Shown here one piece after another: positions 64-3,284 of a stretch of DNA of 33,553 bases (the stretch's first letter is position 1; each line of letters begins with the position of its first letter). This DNA is from Chloroflexota bacterium (GTDB lineage: Bacteria > Chloroflexota > Dehalococcoidia > CAUJGQ01), in the NCBI GenBank assembly GCA_963170165.1, contig CAUJGQ010000176.1, positions 1 to 33,553 of the forward strand. The letters are read 5' to 3'. The notes beneath the pieces were generated by a model. The model was not told the DNA's origin and ran no database searches. It saw only the letters and a list, made by a program, of their open reading frames with translations. The position numbers and the translations under genes are program-made.

Positions 64-549
64 TCAGCCCCCGGCCAGCCGCTTGACCAGCCGCGCCCAG
101 CGCCCGCCGGCGGCGCGGCACGCCTCCAGCACGGCCGCAGACGGCTCGCCCAGGGCAACGGGGCCGTAGTGCGGGCCGTACGGGTCGCCCTGGATCACCA
201 GGCCGTGATTGAGCAGCAGATGAATCGCGTTCAGCAAGGTCAGCTCCGCGCCGCTGCCCGCACGGCTGCCGGCCGCGAAGGCGCCGCCCGCCTTGCCCTC
301 CAGCGGTCCGGGGTAGCCCTGGATGGCAACCTCGTCAAACAGCCGCTTGATGCGCCAGTCTACCCCGCCAAAGCGGGTGGGCGAGCCGATGATGATGCCG
401 TCTGCCGCGCGCAGGTCCGCGATGGCGACTGCGTCCGGTTCGCACACGCGCGCCGCCACCCCCTCGGCGGTGATGCCTTCCACCACTGGCGGGACCATCT
501 TCGCCGTGTTGCCGCGCAGCGAGGTGGTGATGATGAGGATGCTGGGCAT
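64..549 (-). CDS. Flavodoxin / NADPH-dependent FMN reductase-like protein
   Basis: A 161-residue protein of the flavodoxin-like (WrbA/FMN reductase) fold. The N-terminus shows the FMN phosphate-binding loop (TTSLRGNT, residues 8-15), and GSPTRFGG (about 55-62) matches the GSPT-x-FG isoalloxazine loop of WrbA-type proteins. It is shorter than classical WrbA (about 200 aa), so it may be a single-domain flavodoxin rather than a quinone oxidoreductase. The ATG at 549 is preceded by GGAGG at 7 nt spacing; a longer start at 603 overlaps the upstream stop (ATGA) but lacks the family signal. It lies 50 nt behind the AhpD-like selenoprotein candidate on the same strand, so the two are probably co-transcribed and may share electrons. 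The cytosolic redox role is inferred; the substrate is unknown. Confidence 0.85.
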   Translation of the reverse strand: MPSILIITTSLRGNTAKMVPPVVEGITAEGVAARVCEPDAVAIADLRAADGIIIGSPTRFGGVDWRIKRLFDEVAIQGYPGPLEGKAGGAFAAGSRAGSGAELTLLNAIHLLLNHGLVIQGDPYGPHYGPVALGEPSAAVLEACRAAGGRWARLVKRLAGG

Positions 550-599: not shown

Positions 600-1154
600 T
601 CATCCTTTCGCGACGGGGCAATACAGGGCGTTGGACTCGATCAGGAAGACGCGGTTGAGGCGGGCGCGGTAGTTCTCCAGCGCGCCGGTGGCGGCCAGCT
701 CGACAAGCTGCGGCTCGGTGTAGTGGGTGCGCAGGCGGGCGTACAGCTCGTCGGGCACATCGACCGGCGTGGCCGTCATCGCGTCGGCCAGTTCCAGGGC
801 GGCGCGTTCCGCCGCGGTGTACAGGGGGCTGCGCTGGTACTCTGGCAGCGCGGCAAGCTTCTCGTCGCTGATACCGGCGTTGCTGCCCCCGGCAGCGTTG
901 ATATCCATTCAGAACGGGCAGCCGGCCAGGGTGGCGATACGCACACACACCAGCGCGCGCAGCGCCGCCGGCAGCGTGGCATCCGTGCTGACCGCGCGGG
1001 ACAGCGCCCGCCCGGCGGCCAGAATCGGCGGGCGGTGGGCCATCACGTGCGTGGGATTGAGCACCACGCCAAAGGCGCGCTCATCCTGATCGTAGAACGC
1101 GCGCGCCTCCTCCGGCGCCTCCTCGCGCGATAGCATCCGGATGCGGTCGGTCAT
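600..1154 (-). CDS. AhpD-like (carboxymuconolactone decarboxylase family) protein, probable selenoprotein read through UGA
   Basis: Read with the in-frame TGA at 909-911 as selenocysteine, this is a 184-residue protein with Sec at residue 82. The first part (81 aa) ends in LAGCPF and the part after the TGA begins MDINAAGG. Together they give C79-P-F-U82-M-D-I, the AhpD/CMD redox motif CxxC-x-D-I with the second cysteine replaced. The family pattern continues downstream without a gap (DEKLAALPEY, SPLYTAAERAALELADAMTATPV, then QLVELAATGALENYRARLNR). The ATG at 1154 has AAGGAG at 6 nt. Family members act as CxxC-dependent alkylhydroperoxidase-like or thiol oxidoreductase proteins; a Sec residue would replace a redox-active thiol. 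A hairpin right after the UGA resembles a bacterial SECIS. The alternative is a nonsense mutation or sequencing error giving a split pseudogene. No selABCD gene lies in this window, so decoding capacity is untested. Confidence 0.8.
870..911 (-). promoter_or_regulatory. Candidate bacterial SECIS element following UGA codon
   Basis: On the mRNA strand, GAUAUC (905-900) pairs with GGUAUC (875-870), giving a 6-bp lower stem with one G-U. After an AAC/AACGCC internal loop, GCUGCC (896-891) pairs with GGCAGC (887-882), giving a 6-bp upper stem capped by GGG (890-888). The loop begins 18 nt after the UGA, and its first base is G. Published rules for bacterial SECIS elements ask for a small loop with a G in the first two positions about 16-37 nt after the UGA, and this structure fits. 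It lies inside the coding sequence, as bacterial SECIS elements do. It was folded by eye only. Confidence 0.7.
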
Positions 1155-1197
1155 GCGATGCTCCTTGGGTGCGTGGCGCTCCCCCGCGCCTACGCGG

Positions 1198-2144: not shown

Positions 2145-3284
2145 ATGACGGTGAGCATTCCGGCACTGGGGGCCAAGGCGGACTTCCTGGGACTGGAGGA
2201 GGTGGCGCATCTGGCGGCCGGTGGGGAGACACCGCCGCTCAGGAGCCAGGGCGCGGCGATGCTGCGCTGGGTGGAGCTGAAGGGGCGCGGGCCGGCAGGG
2301 GGCGCGGAGCGCGCCGCGGTCACCACCCGGTTGCGCGGGCGGGCGGCCGCGCTGCTGGGCGTCAGCCCGGAGGAGATCGCCATCGCCTCCTCCGCCGCCG
2401 AGGCGGTCAGCCAGGTGGCGCTGTCCCTCGACCTGCAGCCAGGGGACAACGTGATCGTGCAAGATGTGGAGTTCCGCTCCGCCTCGCTGCCCTTCGTGGG
2501 GCTGCGCCGCCGGGGGGTGGAGGTGCGGGTCATTCCCCACGCCGCCTGGACACCGGCGGAAACCGCCTTTGCGCAGGCAGCGGATGCGCGCACCCGGGTG
2601 ATCGTCACCAGCCAGGTGAACTACCTCACCGGCATTCACCACAACCTGGAAGCGCTGCGGGCGATTGCCGACCGTTCCGGCGCGCTGCTGGTGGTGGATG
2701 CGACGCACGCCGCCGGGGCCATCGCCGTGCCAGGGCGGCTGTGCGACTTCGCCATCACCGCCACGTACAAGTGGCAGCTGGGCTGCCAGGGTATCGCCCT
2801 GCTTGCCTGGAACCGGGAGCGGGTGCCGGAGCTGGAGCCCGCCATCTGCGGCTGGCGCTCCGCCGATGACTGGCAGAGCACCGGGAACCCGCTCGAGGCG
2901 GTGTGGAAGCCAACGGCCGAGCGGCTGGAGCCCGGCAACCCCCCGTGGGGGCCGCTGTTCTACCTGGAAGAAGGGTTGGGCTACCTGCTGGCCTGCGGCC
3001 TGGAACGCGTGCAGGCGCACGTGCTGGCGTTGTCGGATGAAGTGAACCGCCGCCTGCGCCAGCTGGAGCTGGAGGTCGCCACCCCAGCAGACCGCCGCTA
3101 CCGCGCCGGGAACAACTGCTTCTGGACGGCGGACCCGGAGGGGCTGGCAGACCGGCTGCTGCGCGAGCATGGTGTGCTGGTCTCGGGCTACTCCGGCCGG
3201 GTGCGCATCTCCACCCACCTGTACAACGACAGCGCCGATATCGAGCGGCTGGCCGGGGCGCTGGCCGCCGTCATGCACGGATAG
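2145..3284 (+). CDS. Class V aminotransferase-fold PLP-dependent enzyme (isopenicillin-N epimerase / cysteine desulfurase-like)
   Basis: A 379-residue fold-type I PLP enzyme of the class V family. VVDATHAAGA (182-191) supplies the Asp (D185) that contacts the pyridine nitrogen and the conserved His (H188). The ITATYKW stretch carries the Schiff-base lysine, K209. A cofactor-phosphate segment is seen near ASSAAEAVSQVAL. An obvious SufS/CsdB active-site Cys loop was not identified, so desulfurase or selenocysteine lyase activity is not claimed; isopenicillin-N epimerase-like or kynureninase-like chemistry is equally possible. The ATG at 2145 follows GGGAGG at about 6 nt. It is downstream of the GNAT gene on the same strand and divergent from the selenoprotein operon. 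Confidence 0.88.
   Translation: MTVSIPALGAKADFLGLEEVAHLAAGGETPPLRSQGAAMLRWVELKGRGPAGGAERAAVTTRLRGRAAALLGVSPEEIAIASSAAEAVSQVALSLDLQPGDNVIVQDVEFRSASLPFVGLRRRGVEVRVIPHAAWTPAETAFAQAADARTRVIVTSQVNYLTGIHHNLEALRAIADRSGALLVVDATHAAGAIAVPGRLCDFAITATYKWQLGCQGIALLAWNRERVPELEPAICGWRSADDWQSTGNPLEAVWKPTAERLEPGNPPWGPLFYLEEGLGYLLACGLERVQAHVLALSDEVNRRLRQLELEVATPADRRYRAGNNCFWTADPEGLADRLLREHGVLVSGYSGRVRISTHLYNDSADIERLAGALAAVMHG

Follow-up and report, generated by a model that had tools for sequence, protein, structure and literature searches.

Two adjacent small open reading frames in the stretch of DNA analysed here, 33,553 nucleotides from a bacterium of the phylum Chloroflexota (hereafter the window), are almost certainly one gene for a redox enzyme, in which the internal "stop" is read as selenocysteine (Sec). 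Judged from sequence, this would be a single gene for an AhpD-like selenoprotein of the CMD superfamily, whose UGA codon 82 is translated as Sec by means of SelB, tRNA-Sec and a downstream SECIS element; we give this whole reading a probability of about 0.9, and hold with still greater confidence that the codon itself is decoded as Sec. Sec at residue 82 had been proposed in the initial annotation of this DNA, and it is borne out by a UGA column that is conserved where other relatives have Cys, by a SECIS hairpin downstream of the codon and by the presence of the Sec machinery in the genome.

The gene and its in-frame TGA

The features of the gene are the following:

600–1154, minus strand: AhpD-like selenoprotein gene, 184 codons, Sec at codon 82, stop codon TGA at 600–602
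909–911, minus strand: in-frame TGA read as selenocysteine 82, the second position of the motif C79-P-F-U82
1161–1166, minus strand: ribosome-binding site AAGGAG, recognised from the sequence, 6 bases 5' of ATG 1154

Direct reading of the minus strand agrees with the frame as first described, from the ATG at 1154–1152 to the stop at 600, with one TGA at 911–909 (codon 82) and no second one. The residues around this codon, LAGCPF-TGA-MDINAAGG, place the UGA at the second cysteine of the AhpD/CMD CxxC motif, exactly as claimed, and the expectation that gene finding would break the gene into two ordinary frames also held, since the plain ORF list gives 909–1226 and 600–908. The joined protein matches the Pfam CMD family (PF02627) with 44 bits, against a gathering cut-off of 23. 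The GC content at third codon positions is 0.89 before the UGA and 0.88 behind it, and the closest relative shares 61% of the amino acids ahead of the UGA and 71% past it, so that coding constraint acts alike on the two sides of the TGA. Scans of the sequence for Rfam families, promoters and terminators gave no match.

The UGA column across relatives

Homologues were sought in 400 genomes drawn across the phylum Chloroflexota and in 393 genomes of the same class, Dehalococcoidia. An in-frame TGA was found in 40 homologues, the window gene included, and in all 40 it lies in the column of residue 82; the 39 others come from 38 Chloroflexota genomes and one genome of the Acidobacteriota (L054). 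Twelve other relatives have an intact motif, and every one of them has Cys in this column; thus the alignment gives the pattern that had been put forward as a check, UGA in some homologues and Cys in others. The closest relative (L056), a member of the same family with 66% identity, carries the TGA too. A paralogue in the source genome (L071, G000:C170:19878-20366) was considered as the Cys counterpart of the selenoprotein and rejected, since its CxxC/CxxU motif is lost entirely (APYEYVHH).

The TGA rows fall short of one exact clade in a maximum-likelihood tree, which needs three state changes; six Cys rows and one TGA row group together within a larger, mostly TGA group. The simplest reading of this topology, whose deep branches are poorly resolved, would be replacement of Sec by Cys within an older Sec group. 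The distribution of selA agrees weakly with the Sec reading: of the 38 further Chloroflexota genomes that carry the TGA form, 35 have the gene and the three that lack it are 69–86% complete, and nine of 18 genomes without a match have it. As proof of Sec this co-occurrence was dropped, because selA is also found in 23 of the 24 genomes that have only non-TGA relatives.

Two further observations concern in-frame TGA codons elsewhere in the family. One relative (L040, G370:C1:529539-530051) has a second in-frame TGA at codon 101, where its two closest relatives have Trp, which may reflect an error in the sequence, decay or recoding at this codon too. Distant CMD homologues of about 30% identity (for example in G132, G050, G148, G108 and G059; family f45) have one in-frame TGA, which suggests that there may be further AhpD-like selenoprotein branches in the Chloroflexota.

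The SECIS hairpin and the Sec machinery

Downstream of the UGA the following elements were located:

882–896, minus strand: SECIS upper stem-loop GCUGCC-GGG-GGCAGC, beginning 12 bases after the UGA, loop GGG at 888–890
870–905, minus strand: possible outer SECIS stem, 900–905 paired with 870–875, as predicted by the minimum free energy (MFE) fold of the window sequence alone

The published rules for bacterial SECIS elements ask for a loop of 3–9 nt with a G in its first two positions, an upper stem of 4–16 bp, a distance of 16–37 nt from the UGA to the loop and an MFE of -7.5 kcal/mol or lower (PMC13188914). The hairpin at 882–896, with its GGG loop, 6-bp stem, distance of 18 nt and MFE of -13.8 kcal/mol, falls within all of them. 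Taken whole, the 45-nt region has an unexceptional folding energy (z -1.05), and the MFE of the stretch after the UGA has a median rank of 0.34 within genes; on these figures it was set aside as evidence for a SECIS in favour of covariation and codon bias. The 21-nt hairpin, which was picked by eye, has an energy z of -3.5, with none of 200 shuffles as good.

The comparative evidence for the SECIS appears to be stronger than the folding energy. Among 33 aligned relatives, 91% of cells are paired, compared with 85.0 (sd 1.0) in shuffles, and the covariation score was reached in none of 500 shuffles, the shuffling being one that ignores relatedness; when the partners are slid by 1–3 columns, all the pairing measures and the covariation score drop. 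The codon at 894–896 ends in T in 38 of the 40 genes, against 9% of comparable Ala, Ser and Thr codons in the rest of these genes and none of 47 in the window gene, and this third-position T pairs with an A on the opposite arm. L062 and L065, which are the exceptions, have a hairpin at the same position made of different bases, which in L062 folds with 7 bp and a GGUG loop. The Cys relatives show no such hairpin in their aligned stretch.

The source genome (G000; 4.41 Mb in 213 contigs, of which the window is contig 176) was searched for selA, selB, selC and selD, the check that had been proposed, and all are present: selA with 503 bits, selB with 318 bits within a 732-aa frame, selD with 355 bits, and a tRNA-Sec with 70.1 bits, which ARAGORN calls SeC with anticodon tca. 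The selD frame (L018, G000:C150:16052-16984) itself carries one in-frame TGA, in the context SCGG-U-ASK at the expected catalytic position, and the genome therefore has at least two predicted selenoproteins. We propose that SelB and tRNA-Sec insert selenocysteine at UGA codon 82, and that the insertion would be directed by the SECIS hairpin, which lies inside the coding sequence directly 3' of the UGA.

Fold, active site and possible reaction

The AlphaFold2 model, built on an alignment of 34 sequences in which Cys stands in for Sec, is a single, confidently predicted domain (pLDDT 96.2, pTM 0.90) with an all-helical, AhpD-like predicted fold (Z 22.7 to 6k40 and 22.6 to 2prr). The AhpD-type CxxC motif is present in its Sec form, CxxU, and C79-P-F-U82 would stand at the start of the helix that follows the active-site turn. 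The enzyme most probably alternates between a reduced thiol/selenol form and an oxidised C79-U82 selenenylsulfide, in which the Sec would attack and the Cys resolve, reducing a peroxide or an oxidised partner protein. That the protein carries out such peroxide or disulfide chemistry we infer with little more than even confidence.

The AhpD-like protein PA0269 shows weak, thiol-dependent reduction of H2O2 and has a proton relay made of Glu36, Cys48, Tyr50, Cys51 and His55 (PMC3141380). The corresponding positions in the window protein are A67, C79, F81, U82 and N86. The relay Glu (or His) and the His are thus both absent from it, and because A67 and N86 replace two relay residues, peroxidase activity cannot simply be transferred from AhpD. 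None of the 40 Sec rows has Glu or His at the Glu position, and at the His position 34 have Asn, five His and one Gly; Glu and His are kept in some Cys relatives. The loss of the relay tracks Sec inexactly, since Gly occupies the His position in those Cys rows that nest near the Sec rows. We infer that selenocysteine, with its low pKa, can make such a relay dispensable.

Could the protein instead catalyse reductive dehalogenation, as the debrominase Bmp8 does, with its Sec used in the manner of thyroid deiodinase, and not the reduction of peroxides or disulfides? Thyroid deiodinase is a selenoenzyme, and Bmp8 works through its CxxC thiols. Bmp8 is the best sequence match among solved structures (7e-13) and is also among the best structural matches, and the replacement of the AhpD relay residues also speaks for this reading. 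Against this, the identity to Bmp8 is only about 25%, plain peroxidase-related proteins match equally well, and no genes for halogenated substrates were recognised adjoining the selenoprotein gene, so that we regard a dehalogenase as unlikely. The broader idea that in a Chloroflexota-wide, Sec-dominated branch of the AhpD fold the pKa of Sec took the place of the Glu-His relay and opened a new reaction, for example a deiodinase-like dehalogenation, is a speculation that we would not expect to hold. For the present protein a peroxide or an oxidised partner is still the more likely substrate.

Other readings of the UGA

The ATG directly behind the UGA invites a reading as two genes, in which translation stops at the UGA and restarts at the adjoining ATG 908 to yield two small proteins. 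An ATG follows the UGA in the window and in 18 of the 40 homologues, and a GTG in two, but in 20 of the 40 there is no start codon at this place (CAG, CAA, GCG, ATT, ACC and others). Furthermore, neither half alone matches Pfam CMD, the active-site motif would be cut, and the conserved hairpin would be left without explanation. The codon after the UGA and the tests on the half domains led us to reject two genes as highly improbable.

It is just as improbable that a suppressor or a changed code makes the UGA a codon for Trp, Cys or some other amino acid than Sec. Beyond the in-frame UGA itself we found nothing that speaks for such a readthrough, and TGA serves as a normal stop in the genes of the window, including the selenoprotein gene; the column holds Cys in other relatives and never Trp, and the SECIS is accompanied by the full Sec machinery. 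A pseudogene or a sequencing error that turned a Cys codon (TGC/TGT) into TGA in one assembly would take a single base change, but 39 other genomes have TGA at this codon, which already refutes it; with coding constraint that persists past the TGA, and both SECIS and sel genes present, its probability is negligible. Selenocysteine at codon 82 of one continuous gene is the reading that we retain.

Relation to known systems

The best full-length family match of the window protein is the NCBIfam model NF053654 (GroundWater_YciW, "YciW-related (seleno)protein"), with 144.3 bits over residues 4–178; this falls far short of the 310-bit cut-off, and the protein lies in a separate branch. NF053654 covers a sister clade, members of which, such as L045 (358 bits), have the same UGA. 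The AhpD-like and CMD-like CxxU selenoproteins described from marine metagenomes by Zhang and co-workers (2005, 2008) have, like the window protein, an AhpD/CMD domain, the CxxU motif and a bacterial SECIS directly after the UGA (PMC1088965, PMC2398784), the comparison with these proteins of metagenomic source being made on their published descriptions.

The Cys-type AhpD-like peroxidase-related proteins (TIGR01926; 6k40, 2prr, 2oyo; PA0269) have the predicted fold in common with the window protein (Z 20–23) and the motif at the same position, with Cys where we find Sec. PA0269 keeps the relay Glu and His (PMC3141380), whereas the window protein has Ala and Asn, and the score of the window protein with TIGR01926, 42.6 bits, is under the cut-off of 81.8. 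Similarly, Bmp8 (PDB 6ohi, 6ohj) has the fold and the motif position in common (Z 21–23), although its motif has Cys. The AhpD of Mycobacterium tuberculosis (PDB 1gu9, 1knc) shares the two-helix active-site core with CxxC, but it is a far weaker structural match (Z about 11, 10–11% identity) and its relay residues Glu118 and His137 have no counterpart in the window protein.

Genes near the selenoprotein gene

The nearest gene downstream is the following:

64–549, minus strand: flavodoxin/NADPH-dependent FMN reductase-like gene, 50 bases 3' of the selenoprotein gene

This gene is perhaps co-transcribed with the selenoprotein gene. As a conserved redox partner it was rejected, since no copy adjoins the selenoprotein gene in the relatives, and no other conserved redox partner was found adjoining the gene across them. 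Eight of the 40 relatives have a gene of the isocitrate lyase/PEP mutase superfamily no more than 1.5 kb away, just upstream and on the same strand in six (L056, L035, L038, L060, L063, L064) and nearby in L059 and L061; it is not in the flank of the window gene itself. A functional link between this gene and the selenoprotein is possible, and we take it as a lead and not as evidence. Two genes away from the selenoprotein gene, on the plus strand at 2145–3284 of the window, there is a class V aminotransferase-like gene with a weak likeness to SufS cysteine desulfurases and to the selenocysteine lyase SclA (37 bits, far below the cut-off).

Novelty and meaning

The novelty implied by the initial annotation was too high. 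Catalogues have included AhpD-like CxxU selenoproteins from 2005 onwards (PMC1088965), AhpD-like and CMD-like forms were again reported in 2008 (PMC2398784) and both are listed in a 2026 review (PMC13188914), and the sister-clade model NF053654 exists. In the open literature we found no paper on AhpD-like selenoproteins of the Chloroflexota and none on Bmp8, and the deep-Sep paper does not mention AhpD. What is new here, as far as sequence comparison indicates, is a broad, Sec-dominated Chloroflexota group below the cut-offs of curated models, in which the Glu and His of the AhpD relay are mostly replaced.

Since the gene appears as two pieces in a plain ORF list and the protein scores under the curated cut-offs, a redox enzyme of many Chloroflexota families is probably mis-annotated. 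Furthermore, these mostly relay-less Sec proteins raise a clean mechanistic question: does selenocysteine make the AhpD relay unnecessary?
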